NCBI GenBank assembly: GCA_012798435.1
Contig: JAAZNF010000044.1
Location: 1-32,038 of the forward strand
Origin: Myxococcales bacterium
GTDB lineage: Bacteria; Myxococcota; B64-G9
Reading direction: 5' to 3'
DNA length: 32,038 bases
Part shown: positions 4,617-14,628 of the stretch, in pieces
How positions within the stretch are numbered: the stretch's first letter is position 1
Layout: every line of letters starts with the position of its first letter
The notes under the pieces: model-generated
Told to the model about the DNA's origin: nothing
Databases searched by the model: none
Seen by the model: only the letters and a program-made list of their open reading frames with translations
Position numbers and translations under genes: made by a program

Positions 4617-5945
4617 ATGTCAACCGTCCGCCTGGAACGCATCGCCGAGCAGCTCAAGCAGGAGATCAGCGCCCTGTTGCAGAAGGGCCTCAAGGATCCC
4701 CGCATCGGCTTCGTCACCATCACCGGCGTCAAGATCACCGCCGACCTGTCTTCGGCCCGGGTGTTCTTCAGCACGCCCGGCACGCCCGAGCAACGGGCGG
4801 AATCCGAGCAGGGCCTCAGCAGCGCCGCCGGCTTCATCCGCGCCACGCTCAAGAAGCGCCTGCGGCTGCGCACCATCCCGGAGATCTCCTTTCACTACGA
4901 CCGCAGCCTGGACGACGGCGACCGCATGGAGCGCCTGCTCAAGGAGGTCCGTGCCCAGGAGGGCTGGGACGATCCCAACCGGGTGCGCGGCTCGGCCAGC
5001 GAGGTGGCCCGCGCCCTGCGCGAGCACAAGAGGTTCCTCGTCACCACCCACACCAATCCCGACGGCGACGCCATCGCCTCGATGCTCGCCATGCGCCGTC
5101 TGCTGCTCCAGCTCGGCAAGGAGGTGCGCGCCTACCACGTCGAGGACGCCCCGGTGAACTTCCGCTTCCTGCCGGATCTCGCCGAGGTGCGGCGCGACTT
5201 CGGTGATGAGGCCTTCGACGTGACCGTGGTGCTCGACTGCTCGGAGCTCGAGCGCGCCTGCCCCCTGCCCCCGCCCGAGCGCCGGGGCATGCTGGTCTCC
5301 ATCGATCACCACCTATCGGCCGAGCCGCTGGGCGAGAGATACCTGCTCGATCCCCTGGCCTCGTCCATCGGCGAGCTCATTGCCGAGGTGCTGGTCGAGC
5401 TCGGCATCGAGCCTGACCGGGACCTGGCCACCTGCATCTACACCTCGATCCTCTCCGACACCGGCTCCTTCCGCTATTCGAACACCACTCCCCGCGCCCT
5501 GCAGACCGCGGCCCGCATGCTGTCGGCCGGCGTGCAACCCTGGGAGGTGGCGCGCGCGGTGTACGAATCCCAGCCCGCCGCGCGGCTGCAACTCTTGGCC
5601 AGGGTATTGCCCACGCTGGAGATCGAACCCCGGGGCCGGTACGCCTCTATCGTCATCCTGCTCGAGATGTACCAGCAGAGCGGCGGCGGCGAGGAACTCA
5701 TCGACGGGTTCATCAACTTCCCGCGGGGAATCCAGGGGGTGGAGGTGGCCATCCAGTTCCGCGAGACCGCCCCGGGACGCTTCAAGGTGAGCTTCCGCTC
5801 GGCGGGAAAGGTGGACGTGGCCGAGATCGCCGGCTCCTTCGGCGGCGGCGGCCACCGCAACGCCGCGGGTTGCACGCTCGAGCACCCCCTGCCCGAGGTC
5901 AAGCGCAGGATCTACCAGGCGGTGGAGGCGGCCCTCCCCGAATGA
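4617..5945 (+). CDS. rbfA-nrnA: RbfA fused to an NrnA-type DHH/DHHA1 phosphoesterase
   Basis: A 442-residue protein that joins two normally separate proteins. Residues 1-112 are a full-length RbfA, the KH-fold factor for 30S maturation, with KDPRIGFVTITGV and SSARVFFS blocks. After a short linker (about 113-125), residues 126-442 match a whole NrnA-type nano-RNase/pAp phosphatase. It has motif I HTNPDGDA (145-152), the VVLDCSE block, DHH at 230-232, a YTSILSDTGSFRYSN segment and the DHHA1 signature FGGGGHRNAAG starting at 408. All metal-ligand motifs are present, so the phosphoesterase should be active on 2-5-mer RNA or pAp. One frame runs through the linker with no stop. The two are commonly neighbours in bacteria; fusion would link 30S assembly and RNA end turnover. 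The ATG lacks a ribosome site (see the promoter entry). The stop overlaps the truB start as ATGA. Confidence 0.93.
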   Translation: MSTVRLERIAEQLKQEISALLQKGLKDPRIGFVTITGVKITADLSSARVFFSTPGTPEQRAESEQGLSSAAGFIRATLKKRLRLRTIPEISFHYDRSLDDGDRMERLLKEVRAQEGWDDPNRVRGSASEVARALREHKRFLVTTHTNPDGDAIASMLAMRRLLLQLGKEVRAYHVEDAPVNFRFLPDLAEVRRDFGDEAFDVTVVLDCSELERACPLPPPERRGMLVSIDHHLSAEPLGERYLLDPLASSIGELIAEVLVELGIEPDRDLATCIYTSILSDTGSFRYSNTTPRALQTAARMLSAGVQPWEVARAVYESQPAARLQLLARVLPTLEIEPRGRYASIVILLEMYQQSGGGEELIDGFINFPRGIQGVEVAIQFRETAPGRFKVSFRSAGKVDVAEIAGSFGGGGHRNAAGCTLEHPLPEVKRRIYQAVEAALPE

Positions 5946-7480: not shown

Positions 7481-9577
7481 ATGCCTATGAAGAAATCCGT
7501 TCGGCTCGGCGAGTCCGAGTTCACCCTCGACGTCGGCCGGGTGGCCCGGCAGGCGGACGGCTCCTGCCTGGTCCGCTTCGGCGACACCATGGTGCTGGTG
7601 GCCGCGGTGGCCGCCGCCAAGCCGCGTGAAGGAGTCGACTTTCTGCCGCTGACCGTGGACTACCGCGAGAAGGCCTCCGCCGCCGGCAAGATCCCGGGCG
7701 GCTTCTTCAAGCGCGAGGGCCGCCCTACCGAGACCGAGATCCTGAACAGCCGCATCATCGACCGCTCCATCCGGCCGCTGTTCCCCAAGGGCTTCGCCCA
7801 CGAGACGCAGGTGCAGGCCCTGGTGCTGTCGGCGGATCCCCAGAACGCCCCCGACGTGCTGGCGGCCACCGGCGCCTCGCTGGCGCTGTGCCTGTCGGAC
7901 GTGCCCTTCGCCGGCCCGCTGGCGACCGTGCGCGTCGGGAGGATCGACGGCCAGTGGCGGGTCAACCCCAGCTTCAAGCAGGTGGAGGCCTCGGACGTGA
8001 ACCTGGTGGTCTCGGCCACCCGCGAGGCCATCTGCATGGTGGAGGGCGAGGCGCGCGAGGTGTCGGAGAAGGACCTGGTGGACGCGCTGATGTTCGCCTA
8101 CGAGCAGGCCCAGGGACTCATCCGCATCCAGGATGAGCTCATCCAGGCGCTGGGCAAGCCCAAACGCACCTTCACCCCGCACGCGATCGATCCCCGGGTG
8201 GCGGCCTGGACGCGGGAGCAGGTGGGCGGGCGCCTGGGCCAGCTCATGTCCATCCCGGTCAAGCTGGATCGCTACCATTTCATGGAGGCCATCCGGCTGG
8301 ATCTGCAAGAGCGCGTGGTCCAGGCCTTCCCGGACGTCGAGCACGCCACCCTGGACGTGTTCGAGACGCTGGAGAAGATGCACCGCGACCTGGTGCGCGG
8401 CGCCATCGCCCGCGAGGGTCGACGGCTGGACGGCCGCGGCCTCACCAACGTGCGCCCCATCACCTGCGAGGTGGGCGTGTTGCCGCGCACCCACGGCTCG
8501 GCGCTGTTCACCCGTGGCGAGACCCAGGCGCTGGTCACCACCACGCTGGGCACCACCCAGGACGAGCAGTTGATCGAGAACCTGGAGGCCGAGTTCACCA
8601 AGAAGTTCATGCTGCACTACAACTTCCCGCCCTTCTCGGTGGGTGAGGTGCGGCCCATCCGCGGCCCGGGCCGGCGCGAGATCGGCCACGGCGCGCTGGC
8701 GGAGCGCTCCATCAAGTCCATGCTCCCCAACCACCAGGACTTCCCCTACACCATCCGCGTGGTATCGGACATCCTGGAGTCCAACGGCTCCTCTTCCATG
8801 GCCACGGTGTGCGGCGCCTCGCTCTCGCTCATGGACGCCGGGGTCAAGCTGCACAAGCCGGTGGCCGGCGTGGCGATGGGCCTCATCAAGGAAGAGAGTG
8901 GCTTCCACGTGCTCACCGACATCATGGGCGACGAGGATCACCTGGGCGACATGGACTTCAAGGTGGCGGGCTCGCGCGACGGCATCACCGGCATCCAGAT
9001 GGACATCAAGGTGACCGGCATCGACCGGGCGGTGCTGGAGCGCGCCCTGGCCCAGGCCCGGGAGGCCCGCCTGCACATCTTGCGCGAGATGGAGAAGACG
9101 CTGGCCGCCCCGCGCCCCGACCTCAGCCCCTACGCCCCGCGCATCACCACCATCCAGATCAAGCCCGAGCGCATCAAGGACGTGATCGGGCCGGGAGGCC
9201 GGGTGATCAAGGATCTGGTGGCGCGCACCGGCTGCTCCATCGACGTGGAGGACGATGGCACGGTGCGGGTCGGCTCCTCGGATCCGGAGATGGCCAAGGA
9301 GGCCATCCGCATCATCCGCGAGCTGACCCAGGAGGCCGAGATCGGCAAGCTGTACATGGCCACGGTGCGCAAGATCACCGACTTCGGGGCCTTCTGCGAG
9401 ATCCTGCCCGGCACCGACGGCCTGCTGCACATCAGCGAGCTCTCCGACAAGCGGGTGGAGAAGGTCAGCGACGTGCTGCGCGAGGGCGACGAGGTGCTGG
9501 TCAAGGTGGTCAGCATCGACCGCCAGGGCAAGATCCGCCTCTCGCGCAAAGAGGCGCTCAACCAGAAGCCCGAATGA
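7481..9577 (+). CDS. pnp: Polyribonucleotide nucleotidyltransferase (PNPase)
   Basis: A 698-residue phosphorolytic 3'-5' exoribonuclease, normal length for the family. Domain order: first RNase PH core (about 10-145), all-alpha linker (to about 230), second RNase PH core (about 305-540), KH (about 555-615) and S1 (about 620-690). The second core holds [16 protein letters not shown] and the catalytic acidic block [15 protein letters not shown]. The KH loop [10 protein letters not shown] and the S1 start [20 protein letters not shown] are intact. It acts in mRNA decay, alone or with RNase E and a helicase. The ribosome site is strong. Its stop overlaps the start of dut. Confidence 0.97.
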
Positions 9578-10038
9578 GCCGCGCCGCGGCCAGGCCTCCC
9601 CGGGTGCTGCTCCGGCGCCTGCCCCACGGCGCGGGCCTTCCCCTGCCCGCCTACGCCACCGCCGGGTCGGCGGGGCTCGATCTTCCGGCGGCCGTCGCCG
9701 AGACCGTGGTCATCGGCCCGGGCCAGACCCTGGCGGTGCCCACTGGAATCTGTCTGGCCATTCCCGAGGGCTTCGAGGGCCAGGTGCGGCCCCGCAGCGG
9801 CCTGGCCCGGCGCTGCGGCCTCACCGTCCTCAACGCGCCCGGCACCATCGACGCCGATTATCGTGGCGAGCTCGTGGTGTTGCTCGTCAACCTGGGCCAG
9901 CAACCCGTGTCGATCGATCGCGGCATGCGCGTGGCCCAGCTGGTGATCGCCCCCGTGGCCAGGGCCGAGCTCGTCGAGGCCGACACCCTGCCCGAGACCT
10001 CGCGTCAGGATGGCGGTTTCGGACACACCGGGACCTGA
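9574..10038 (+). CDS. dut: dUTP diphosphatase
   Basis: A 154-residue trimeric-type dUTPase that hydrolyses dUTP to dUMP and pyrophosphate, keeping uracil out of DNA and feeding dTMP synthesis. All five family motifs are visible: AGLDL (33-37), RSGLA (74-78), [10 protein letters not shown] (90-99, with catalytic Asp93), RVAQLVI, and the glycine-rich GGFGHTG tail. The ATG at 9574 overlaps the pnp TGA, so the gene is probably translationally coupled to pnp. Longer in-frame extensions upstream lie inside pnp and are not credible. Confidence 0.95.
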
Positions 10039-10154: not shown

Positions 10155-13100
10155 GTGCTCTGTTTCCGCTGCGGCAGCCACAATCCGGACGGCAGTGAGT
10201 TCTGTTCCCAGTGCGGCCAGAAGTTCGGCGAAAAGAAGAAGACGCCCGCCGAGCCGGTGGCGGCGCCGGTGTCCGCACCGCGCCCCACGGAGAAGCCGCC
10301 CGAGGAGGCGCCGCAGCTCCAACCGGGCCGGCAGATCGGGGAGCGCTACCAGGTGAAGGCCGTCGTCGGCACCGGTCCGGTGGGTACGGTGTACCGGGCC
10401 CACGACCTGGAGATCGACGTGGACGTGGCGGTGAAGGTCATCGCGGGAAAGCTCCTGCAGACCAAGGAGGAGAAAAAGAAGTTCCTGGTGGAGATCCGCA
10501 ACGCCCGCAAGATCAACCACCCCAACGTGGTGCGCCTGTACGATGAGGATCAGCAGGAGGACCTCACCTTCTTCACCATGCAGCTCCTCGAGGGGCTGAG
10601 CCTGCGCAAGATCATTCGCTTGCGCCAGGAGAAGAACCAGCAGTTTGCCATCAAGGAGATCGAGCCCATCTTCTCCCACGTCTGCCAGGCGCTGGACCGG
10701 GCGCACGAGGTCTGCGTGCACGGCGGGCTCAAGCCGGAGAACGTCATCGTCCTGCCGGACATGCTCAAGCTGACCGACTTCGGGTTGCTGGAGGCCTTGC
10801 CGCGGCGTCCTTTCGTGGCCGCCCAGGCCGCCGCACACTGCCTCGCGTACCTCGCGCCCGAGATTCGCGAGGGCGAGCAGCGGGCCGAGCCTGCCGCCGA
10901 TACCTATTCGCTGGGCGTGATCCTGTGGGAGATGATCTCCGGGCGCCTGTACGAAGGCCCGGCCTCCAGCCTCGGCCAGGTGCCGGCGGAGTTCGAGCCT
11001 TTGCTTCCGGTGGTGAAGCGCGCGCTCAACGAGCAACCCGGCAAGCGTCCGCGCACCGCCCGCGAGTTCTTTGACGAGCTGCACACCGCCATGGCCCCGG
11101 GCCGGTCCCGGGTGTCCCGTCCACCTCGTCCGGCCCCCGCGCGCGAGGAAGAGAAGCCCGCCGCCGCGCCGCAGCCAGCACCGACGGCACGGCCGTCCAC
11201 CCGTCCCGAGATGCCCGCCGTGTCGCGCCCGCCCAAGCCGGCCCCGGCGGCGCGCAAGGTGAGCGACGGGTTCGACGATGCGCCCCCCACCGTGGTCGAC
11301 GCGGCCATCATGCTCGACTCGCCCCGCAAGGAAGAACCCGCCGCGCCCACACCGCCGGTCGATGAGAACCGATTGATCGAGGAGCTGGCCGGGGAGGCCC
11401 AGGAAGAGGTGGAGGCCAACGCCGCCGAGCGGGAGTCGGTCAGCGATGGGGAGATGATGGAGGAAGAGATTACGGACGAGACCTCCGGGGCCAAAGACCA
11501 GGAGGCGGCCGAGGACGGCAGCGAGACACAGGTGGCTCGCCCCGCCACTCCGGTTCGTCCCGCACCGGAGCGTCAAGCCGAGGTACGGGTGGCCCTCCCG
11601 GTCAACCAGCAACTCCCGGTCGCGGCTGCGGTCCAATCGCAGGCGCCCAAGAAGAAGACTTCCAGTGTCATGCGGCGCGCGCCGGCGCCGGTGTCCGCCG
11701 GGCCGTCTGCCGCCCGTTTCTCGTCGCCTCCGGCGGGCGTCCCGCCGGTTTCGCAGGGGCCCGGGGGCGCGGTGTACCCCGGCGCCCCGTACCCGCCGCA
11801 GGCCTATGGCCCGTTCAGCCAGCCGGTCATCTACACCCAGCCGCCGGCGCCGCCCTCGCGCCTGCCCTGGATCGTGCTGATCCTGGGCATCCTGGTGTTC
11901 GCCGGGGCCCTGGCCGCAGTGCTGGTACTGATGAAGAGCCAGCAGGACGAGCTGGCCGAGACCAAGAAACTCCTGGCCGCGGCCATCACCAAGGAGCCTT
12001 CCAAGGCGCCGGAGACCCAGATTCAACCGCCGCCGGCCGCCGACGCCGAGAAGGCCCGGGCCGCCGCTGAGGAGGCGCGCAAGGCCGAGGAGGCGAAGAA
12101 GGCCGAGGAAGCGCGCAAGGCTGAAGAGGCGAAGAAGGCCGAAGAGGCACGCCTGGCCGAAGAGGCGCGCAAGGTCGAGGAAGCGAAGAAGGCCGAGGAG
12201 GCCAAGAGGTTGGAGGAAGCGAAGCGGGCCGACGAGGCGCGCAAGGCCCTGCTGGCCAGCCGCAACCCGGAGGACCGCCGCCGGGCGCGGGAGGAAGAAC
12301 GCCGCGCCCGCGAGGAAGAGCGGCGCCGCATCGAAGAAGAGAAACAGCGCGCCCGCGAGGAGGCCCGCCGCAAGGCCGAGGAGCGAGCCGCCGAGGAGCG
12401 GGCCCGCAAAGAGGAAGAGGCCCGCCGCAAGGCCGAGGCCGAGAAGGCCCGCACCGCGAGCCGTTTGCCGGTGGAGGAGGTTCCGGACGTCGGCGGCGGC
12501 GAGAGCCCGCCTCCAGAGCCCGTCCGCCCGGCCGAGCCCCCGCCCTCGCCCCCGGCCCCGGTCGAGGAGGAGAAGGTCGCCGCGGCCGCGCCCCCTGCCG
12601 GCAAGGGCGCTTGTCCCCGGGGCATGATCCACATCCCCGGCGGCGACGCGGCCATCGGCTCGGCGATCAGCGACCCCATGCGCAACTTCGGCGAGATCAA
12701 GCTGCACACCGTGACGGTGGGCGCCTTCTGCATCGACATCTTCGAATACCCCAATGGCAAGGGCGCAAAACCCGTGACCGGCGTCTCCTGGGCCCAGGCC
12801 GACCAGATGTGCAAGAAGAAGGGCAAGCGCCTGTGCACCGAGGAGGAGTGGGAGTTCGCCTGCAAGGGCCGGGGCAACCTGAGCTTCCCCTACGGCAACA
12901 CCTTCGATCCGGAAGCCTGCAACTCTCAGAACGCGGACGGCGAGGGCCGCGAGGTCGGCGTCAGCGGCGCCTTCGCCAAGTGCTTCTCTCCCTTCGGGGT
13001 GGCCGACATGAGCGGCAACGTCAGCGAGTGGACCGCCTCGCGCTGGGCGGACGGCGTCGGCGATCGCACCTACAAGGGCGGCTCGGCCTCGCGGCCCAAC

Positions 13101-13190
13101 TGGGCGGTGCGCTGCGCCAGCCGCAGCAACCTGCCGCCGGGCTCGTCCAAGGGCGACCTGGGTTTCCGCTGCTGCGCCGATCCGAAGTGA
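10155..13190 (+). CDS. Zinc ribbon, pseudokinase, TM, TolA-like helix, FGE-like domain protein
   Basis: A 1011-residue protein starting at GTG, five bases after AGGAGA (10144-10149); a TTG eight codons upstream lacks this. Residues 3-20 form a zinc ribbon (Cys3, 6, 17, 20). A Ser/Thr-kinase fold spans about 60-330. It keeps the glycine loop GTGPVG (72-77), Lys94, Glu113 and DFG (208-210), but the catalytic HRD is H189-G190-G191, so the catalytic Asp is absent. A long Pro/Ala/Glu linker follows, then one membrane helix (about 570-595). Residues about 630-770 are an E/A/K/R-rich helix with KAEEARKAEEAKK repeats resembling TolA. An FGE-sulfatase/SUMF1 domain lies at about 817-1011 (GMIHIPGG, RLCTEEEWEFAC, MSGNVSEW, LGFRCC). 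The first Cys of the formylglycine-generating enzyme pair is replaced by Asn (SRPNWAVRCASRS). Predicted layout: cytoplasmic sensor head and periplasmic FGE-like tip. A weak TTGTCG (10071) is the only upstream promoter hint. Confidence 0.9.
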   Translation: MLCFRCGSHNPDGSEFCSQCGQKFGEKKKTPAEPVAAPVSAPRPTEKPPEEAPQLQPGRQIGERYQVKAVVGTGPVGTVYRAHDLEIDVDVAVKVIAGKLLQTKEEKKKFLVEIRNARKINHPNVVRLYDEDQQEDLTFFTMQLLEGLSLRKIIRLRQEKNQQFAIKEIEPIFSHVCQALDRAHEVCVHGGLKPENVIVLPDMLKLTDFGLLEALPRRPFVAAQAAAHCLAYLAPEIREGEQRAEPAADTYSLGVILWEMISGRLYEGPASSLGQVPAEFEPLLPVVKRALNEQPGKRPRTAREFFDELHTAMAPGRSRVSRPPRPAPAREEEKPAAAPQPAPTARPSTRPEMPAVSRPPKPAPAARKVSDGFDDAPPTVVDAAIMLDSPRKEEPAAPTPPVDENRLIEELAGEAQEEVEANAAERESVSDGEMMEEEITDETSGAKDQEAAEDGSETQVARPATPVRPAPERQAEVRVALPVNQQLPVAAAVQSQAPKKKTSSVMRRAPAPVSAGPSAARFSSPPAGVPPVSQGPGGAVYPGAPYPPQAYGPFSQPVIYTQPPAPPSRLPWIVLILGILVFAGALAAVLVLMKSQQDELAETKKLLAAAITKEPSKAPETQIQPPPAADAEKARAAAEEARKAEEAKKAEEARKAEEAKKAEEARLAEEARKVEEAKKAEEAKRLEEAKRADEARKALLASRNPEDRRRAREEERRAREEERRRIEEEKQRAREEARRKAEERAAEERARKEEEARRKAEAEKARTASRLPVEEVPDVGGGESPPPEPVRPAEPPPSPPAPVEEEKVAAAAPPAGKGACPRGMIHIPGGDAAIGSAISDPMRNFGEIKLHTVTVGAFCIDIFEYPNGKGAKPVTGVSWAQADQMCKKKGKRLCTEEEWEFACKGRGNLSFPYGNTFDPEACNSQNADGEGREVGVSGAFAKCFSPFGVADMSGNVSEWTASRWADGVGDRTYKGGSASRPNWAVRCASRSNLPPGSSKGDLGFRCCADPK

Positions 13191-13287: not shown

Positions 13288-13359
13288 GCTCGGCTTGCGC
13301 TGTCAAGGGCCTTCGGTCCCTGCGGGATTCGCGTTGCTCACCCTTGACAGCAGCCGAGC
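13288..13359. repeat. Long imperfect inverted repeat in convergent gap
   Basis: The left arm GCTCGGCT-TGCG-CTGTCAAGGG (13288-13309) pairs with CCCTTGACAG-C-AGCCGAGC (13341-13359). That is 18 base pairs broken only by a 4-versus-1 internal loop, enclosing a 31-base loop. It lies between the convergent genes ending at 13190 and 13578. No T-run follows on either side. Confidence 0.7.
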
Positions 13360-13577: not shown

Positions 13578-14525
13578 TCACTCTTCGGGGAGGACGGTGC
13601 ACACGCGGTTGCGCCCGGACTCCTTGGCCTGGTAGAGGCCCTGGTCGGCCCGCTCGATCAGGGCCTCGGGGGTACCGATGGTGTCGTGCGGGCACACCGC
13701 GAAACCGACGCTGATGGTGACCTGCGCCTGCGCTTCTTCCTGGCGGAACTGGGCGTGCTCCACGTTGCCCCGGATGCGCTCGGCCACGATTCGGGCCTGC
13801 GACAGGTTCGTCTCCGGGCACAGGATGGCGAACTCCTCCCCGCCGTAGCGGGCCGCGATGTCCACCCCGCGGATGGAGCGCCGGATGACCTCGGCGGTGT
13901 GGCGCAGCACGTAATCGCCGAACAAGTGACCGTGGGAATCGTTGAGCCGTTTGAAGTGATCGAGGTCCAGCATGAGCAATGCAAGCGGGTTGCGGTAACG
14001 CTGCATGCGCTGGAACTCGTAGCCGATGCGCTTCTGGAAGTACAGGCGGTTGTACACGCTGGTGAGCCCGTCGGTCATGGAGAGTTCGGAGAGCTTCTCG
14101 TTCACCTGTTGCAGGCGCTGGTTGGCCGACAGCAGCTCGTCCTGCAAGGACTTGAGGCGCAGCATGGACTTCACGCGGGCCAGCAGCTCGAGGTCGTTCA
14201 GGGGCTTGATCAAGTAGTCGTCCGCCCCCAGCTCCAGGCCCTGGATCTTCTGCTGCACGTCGCCGCGGGCGGTCATCAGGATGACCGGCAGAAAGCCGAA
14301 GCTCTTGTTGCTGTTGGCCCGCACGATGCGGCAGATCTCCCGTCCGCCGAGGTCCGGCATCTCCACGTCGATGAGCAGTAGATCCGGTTTGTCGTCCCGC
14401 AGGCGGGCCAGGGCCTCCTGCCCGCTCTTGCCGGTGAGCACCTGGTAGCCGGCCCGCTCCAGCCAATCCGCGGTCGTTCGCAACACCACCGGATCGTCGT
14501 CCACCACCAGGATCTTGGCGTTCAT
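13578..14525 (-). CDS. Response regulator diguanylate cyclase (REC-GGDEF)
   Basis: A 315-residue two-domain protein of PleD/WspR type. The REC domain (about 3-122) has the acidic pocket DDD at 9-11, phospho-acceptor Asp53, Thr85 and Lys107. A helical linker (about 122-148) with heptad character would allow dimerisation. The GGDEF domain (about 150-310) has the active loop GGEEF (228-232), metal-binding DLDHFK (187-192) and an inhibitory I-site RGVD (219-222) five residues before it. It should therefore make c-di-GMP from two GTP when phosphorylated and be product-inhibited. The start ATG at 14525 has GGGGAG just upstream and begins right at the REC strand; an earlier in-frame ATG adds 25 unconserved residues. 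The cognate histidine kinase is not in the window. It is divergent from the Clp-N-like gene. Confidence 0.93.
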   Translation of the reverse strand: MNAKILVVDDDPVVLRTTADWLERAGYQVLTGKSGQEALARLRDDKPDLLLIDVEMPDLGGREICRIVRANSNKSFGFLPVILMTARGDVQQKIQGLELGADDYLIKPLNDLELLARVKSMLRLKSLQDELLSANQRLQQVNEKLSELSMTDGLTSVYNRLYFQKRIGYEFQRMQRYRNPLALLMLDLDHFKRLNDSHGHLFGDYVLRHTAEVIRRSIRGVDIAARYGGEEFAILCPETNLSQARIVAERIRGNVEHAQFRQEEAQAQVTISVGFAVCPHDTIGTPEALIERADQGLYQAKESGRNRVCTVLPEE

Positions 14526-14543
14526 GTTCTCCCCGTACGGTCC

Positions 14544-14573
14544 ATGATGAAGCGGATCCCGGTACGCTGTCAA
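14544..14573 (-). promoter_or_regulatory. Promoter of the diguanylate cyclase gene
   Basis: On the minus strand TTGACA (14568-14573), an 18-base spacer and CATCAT (14544-14549). The start would be near 14537, leaving a leader of about 12 bases that holds just the GGGGAG ribosome site. It stands back to back with the promoter of the Clp-N-like gene; the two -35 elements are 26 bases apart. Confidence 0.55.
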
Positions 14574-14599
14574 ACATCTAGCCACAAGCGGGCGCGGCA

Positions 14600-14628
14600 T
14601 TGACTCCTTGCTGCGCTATACCTACACT
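14600..14628 (+). promoter_or_regulatory. Promoter of the Clp-N-like gene
   Basis: TTGACT (14600-14605), a 17-base spacer and TACACT (14623-14628), giving a start near 14635. The strong ribosome site AGAGGAGG begins at 14635, so the leader would be only about 13 bases. The TTG at 14600, which could be read as a start codon, is part of this -35. Confidence 0.65.

Follow-up and report, generated by a model that had tools for sequence, protein, structure and literature searches.

The window, i.e. the complete stretch of 32,038 nucleotides analysed here, carries at positions 10155..13190 (+ strand) a gene whose product is probably a bitopic receptor or scaffold of the inner membrane, whereby its kinase fold would bind ATP with no need for catalysis. 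The reading frame, derived from the ORF list and the sequence, encodes 1011 aa and begins with a GTG start codon preceded by an AGGAG site, i.e. a good ribosome-binding site. From the N- to the C-terminus the protein consists of a zinc ribbon, a Hanks-type kinase fold, one membrane helix, an E/A/K-rich segment and an FGE-like domain. Cys3/6/17/20, Lys94, Glu113, HGG (189-191) and DFG (208-210) are all located where the original prediction had placed them, and the kinase and FGE folds it had proposed were both borne out by domain profile search and structure prediction (Pfam, AlphaFold2, Foldseek). Within its own genome this is the sole frame with both kinase and FGE, as judged by the coordinates of 47 kinase and 9 FGE hits.

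The N-terminal zinc ribbon (10161..10214, +) was assigned by Pfam Zn_Ribbon_1 with E 6.6e-5 and 23 bits, slightly below the curated cut-off of 25 bits. All four cysteines (Cys3/6/17/20) are present in 103 of 106 sequences. The Hanks-type pseudokinase domain comprises residues 64-313 (10344..11093, +). It is recognised by Pfam Pkinase with E 3.7e-34, and an AlphaFold2 model of zinc ribbon and kinase, built with the relatives' alignments, reached a pLDDT of 90.3. The best Foldseek match of the kinase model is Mtb PknA (4ow8, E 2.2e-18), and other bacterial kinases such as PknB were retrieved as well. The domain is a Hanks-type (eukaryotic-like) Ser/Thr kinase fold.

In agreement with the proposed pseudokinase with ATP contacts, Lys, glycine loop, Asn and DFG Asp are kept and the catalytic base varies. 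Lys94, the ATP-binding lysine of the VAIK motif (10434..10436, +), is invariant in all 106 sequences together with His189, Gly74, Gly77 and Asp249; the structure alignment comprises 15 invariant kinase columns. Asn196 is kept in 104/106 sequences and the Asp of the DFG motif (10776..10784, +) in 100/106. Based on these residues, nucleotide binding by the kinase fold is very likely kept in most species. It may not be universal, since six relatives have lost the DFG Asp.

The HRD motif is replaced by HGG (10719..10727, +), as seen in the 106-sequence alignment, whereby Gly191 occupies the position of the catalytic base. Hence the window protein lacks the catalytic Asp of an active kinase and, having lost at least one of Lys, HRD Asp and DFG Asp, is by its sequence classed as a pseudokinase. 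Across the family the HRD Asp is absent in only 35 of the 106 sequences (position 191: D71, N23, G5, A4, S3). The Asp-bearing forms read HSD/HGD/HTD/HAD; the Arg of HRD is found in 0/106 sequences and the alphaC Glu in 20/106. As expected from the original prediction none of the homologs has HRD, but the catalytic Asp is frequent and eight relatives combine Lys, Glu, Asp, Asn and DFG-Asp, four of them belonging to the window's own family. The notion of a catalytically dead kinase can be kept for the window protein and for many lineages, but not for each member, some close relatives having a full catalytic set. Gly191 itself turned out to be atypical: same-family relatives carry Asp (6/8) or Asn (2/8). 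Among the other kinases of the own genome, 30 fetched loci of the 47 kinase hits yielded HRD in 24 of 25 with a readable motif and HGN in one (L088, C102:79313-79993). A second Ser/Thr kinase of the window (L086; 28520-30028, - strand) has a normal HRDISPGN motif.

A maximum-likelihood tree was built without the key kinase columns. Many of its branches are weakly supported and the change counts are thus approximate: the tree implies at least 20 switches between D and non-D, and the 25 changes at site 191 correspond to the 72nd percentile of 236 sites (median 17.5). Lys94 and His189 changed 0 times and Asn196 changed twice. Switches are found between very close relatives and also in finished genomes, hence sequencing error is an unlikely cause. 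The restriction of position 191 to D/N/G/A/S suggests that the constraint is relaxed, not absent. Phosphotransfer seems not to be a constant feature of the family; some members may have it, given the 71 of 106 sequences with Asp and the eight with all five key residues. Kinase activity sometimes survives the loss of the HRD Asp.

The FGE-like domain (residues 820-1011; 12612..13187, +) is supported by Pfam FGE-sulfatase (E 1.7e-29), by an AlphaFold2 model using the relatives' alignments (pLDDT 92.0), by Foldseek matches of this model to CalU17, SUMF2 and human FGE, and by conservation, with 46 positions conserved at 93% or more. It has the fold of the enzyme and lacks the catalytic Cys336 and Cys341 of the copper site. 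In the alignment with SUMF1, Cys336 falls into a 3-residue gap, Asn982 (13098..13100, +) is placed on the catalytic Cys341 and Cys987 (13113..13115, +) on Cys346. In human FGE, Cys346 and Cys235 form a structural disulfide (PMC4505483); the equivalent partner here is Cys903. The Asn982 column never holds Cys (94 sequences), and a conserved catalytic Cys is missing in 94/94. The proposed loss of the active site in a non-enzymatic fold, including the absence of a Cys/copper site, is thus supported, but the register was wrong. The original prediction had regarded the Cys of SRPNWAVRC as the surviving member of the catalytic pair, whereas this residue is the structural Cys987 and both catalytic cysteines are gone. 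The error goes back to the 341-346 spacing being taken for 336-341, with four residues in between in both cases. A half-intact catalytic pair is ruled out by the SUMF1 alignment.

Ten cysteines of the domain are invariant in 94/94 complete sequences, and no other column has Cys in more than 20. Being invariant and even-numbered, they fit extracytoplasmic disulfides in an oxidising periplasm. Five disulfides are possible, whereby two (886-1006, 903-987) would match human FGE and the remaining three may be family-specific. An FGE-like domain of the same short, Cys-rich type was observed in L189 of the own genome (C74), a Cys-rich repeat protein that looks secreted and ends in GFRCC like the window protein.

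Consistent with the predicted single membrane helix, hydropathy reveals one strong hydrophobic segment at residues ~571-594 (11865..11936, +; maximum 3.08), and all complete relatives have a hydrophobic segment ahead of the FGE domain. One TM helix combined with ten invariant C-terminal cysteines points to an external FGE domain opposite the kinase, which agrees with the placement of the two ends as predicted. Residues 314-570 (11094..11864, +) represent a low-complexity Pro/acidic linker, presumably cytoplasmic, of which little beyond short motifs is conserved or alignable among close relatives. Comparison of close sequences revealed PPTVVDA (11283..11303, +), with Thr present in 7 of the 8 close sequences, the window protein among them, and PPMVVDT in L046; an ATQPLDA-type motif occurs in 42 other sequences. 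Our guess is that FHA proteins could dock onto these motifs at a phosphorylated Thr.

Of 155 genomes sampled across the phylum, 113 contain a strong relative, with one copy in 112 genomes and two in G020, whose second copy (L170) shows 38% identity. Most of 39 related genomes hold one clearly separated relative. Identities amount to 64-68% within the same family and ~39-52% elsewhere in the phylum, compared to ~38% or less for other kinases. The relatives' DNA was taken for 105 loci including L170. Judged by their size and wealth of kinases, the genomes may belong to Myxococcota. MAGs of Archangium, Kofleriaceae and Labilithrix gave no match above 40% identity, and in the phylum group to which the Kofleriaceae MAG belongs, only 4 of 58 genomes have a match at E <= 1e-44. 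The viral contigs searched gave no match, and matches on plasmids were general kinases and FGE-like proteins only. The conserved upstream neighbour is dut (dUTPase; 9571..10038, +; Pfam dUTPase), located directly upstream in 84/102 relatives with a usual gap of ~110 bp; the rpsO-pnp-dut region houses the gene in many relatives. We see an even chance that these genes constitute a hitherto undescribed family of transmembrane pseudokinase receptors, near single-copy and phylum-wide, whose members retain nucleotide binding while the catalytic base drifts between species, possibly with active and dead versions alternating among close relatives of the same architecture and gene position.

The protein might instead be an ordinary transmembrane sensor kinase of an unusual non-RD type which still phosphorylates its substrates, at least where Asp is kept, Gly191 being a lineage-specific loss or compensated. 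We regard this as possible but rather unlikely. The prevalence of Asp191 (71/106) and of the DFG Asp (100/106) would agree with it, as would the full K/E/D/N/D set in eight relatives, four of them same-family. However, an active kinase is difficult to reconcile with D and non-D having switched at least 20 times on the tree, and the alphaC Glu is absent from 86/106 sequences and the HRD Arg from all. Even the large family f8, which mostly has Asp at 191, is without this Glu. Moreover Gly191 is encoded by GGG and differs by two steps from GAC, the usual codon, which makes a very recent change less likely.

Clearly improbable is the idea of a rigid, TolA-like rod that spans the periplasm with the FGE domain at its tip and transmits force or signals to the outer envelope. 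The ~140-residue E/A/K helix on which it was based is real in composition, with 137 mostly E/A/R/K residues (629-765; 12039..12449, +), but Pro705 interrupts it, leaving two helices of no more than ~75 and ~60 residues. Similar long helical runs, i.e. 60 or more residues free of Pro/Gly, exist in only 22/93 relatives and are missing in 71/93. The tether between TM helix and FGE domain ranges from 29 to 305 aa (median 85) and is shorter than 60 aa in 44/93; it is often Pro-rich, and close relatives (e.g. L049, L052) have a Pro/Lys-rich tether instead of E/A/K. A conserved long helix as in a TolA-type periplasm-spanning rod is thus not found, tether length and composition being variable, and the Pfam matches of the protein include no Ton/Tol-type domain. 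The predicted 20-nm rod to an outer tip is not supported. Since the tether is short or broken by Pro/Gly in most of the 93 relatives, the family cannot have force coupling by a rod as its common function, and a rigid rod would be a local feature at best. By far the least probable explanation is gene decay with loss of both activities. Both active sites are indeed altered, but the matched frames are free of internal stop codons, the gene is near-universal in single copy at a conserved position, and the conserved columns (46 in FGE at 93% or more, 15 invariant ones in the kinase) speak against decay. The pseudogene reading was rejected on these grounds.

We hence favour a receptor or scaffold of the inner membrane. 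A non-catalytic, disulfide-stabilised FGE-like domain would be exposed to the periplasm on a variable tether and probably bind a ligand or protein partner, with one helix passing through the inner membrane. On the cytoplasmic side, the zinc ribbon and kinase fold would be attached by a long, disordered linker that carries a conserved Thr motif. The kinase fold, seemingly under no selection for phosphotransfer, would most likely serve as an ATP-dependent conformational switch or as a docking platform for other signalling proteins.

PknB/PknA-type kinases (Mtb PknA 4ow8, S. aureus PknB/Stk1 4eqm) share with the window protein the cytoplasmic Hanks fold, a linker, one TM helix and an external sensor. 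In contrast to them the window protein has an N-terminal zinc ribbon, lacks the catalytic base and the HRD Arg, and exhibits an FGE-like domain in place of the PASTA repeats. EssB/YukC of the T7SSb is a cytoplasmic pseudokinase that is anchored in the membrane, has an external part and acts as a scaffold (PMC12599244). In EssB all three motifs are gone, ATP binding included, whereas the window protein keeps the VAIK Lys and DFG; T7SS genes were not seen in the window. Seven bacterial pseudokinase families were reviewed in 2025 (ActPs1-3, GLW, CP1, DYD and DLHK; PMC12599244). Like the present family they are bacterial Ser/Thr pseudokinases, several of them membrane-associated. They deviate in all three motifs or in the ATP/metal motifs, whereas the present family deviates mainly at HRD. 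With the VAIK Lys in 106/106 and the DFG Asp in 100/106 sequences, it is set apart from all seven by the descriptions in that paper.

A kinase and an FGE-like (NirV/DUF323) domain within one protein are known from a chlamydial kinase, which is classed among the kinases and not the pseudokinases (PMC1262709) and may deviate in zinc ribbon, TM layout and active-site loss. Among solved structures, human SUMF2/pFGE (1y4j; E 8e-29 with the family profile) is closest to the FGE domain in sequence; it has been described as a non-functional counterpart of FGE. SUMF2 is a stand-alone eukaryotic protein, whereas the domain of the window protein is shorter, with ten cysteines that never vary. A literature search for the zinc ribbon-kinase-TM-FGE architecture found nothing. 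Taken together the kind of protein is already known, but the family appears to be new.

Bacterial pseudokinases are little studied, and this conserved family offers a natural D/N/G/A/S series at the catalytic position, with architecture and gene position constant across the series, in kinase-rich bacteria. It thereby permits a direct test of kinase activity versus ATP-bound shape alone in a bacterial receptor. The FGE-like domain would represent a non-enzymatic module outside the cell, one that automatic annotation would wrongly call an enzyme.

Some further features of the window were observed. An imperfect hairpin-like stretch, TGTCAAGGG ... CCCTTGACA, was spotted by eye 3' of the gene at 13290-13355; it is absent from the output of the repeat finder, and the sequence of its left arm is unique within the window. 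A response regulator with a GGDEF domain (13578-14600, - strand) is convergent with the pseudokinase gene and found at that site only in same-family genomes. At 4617-5945, RbfA and a DHH/DHHA1 (NrnA-like) phosphoesterase are fused in one frame; this fusion shows 58-60% identity to same-family relatives.
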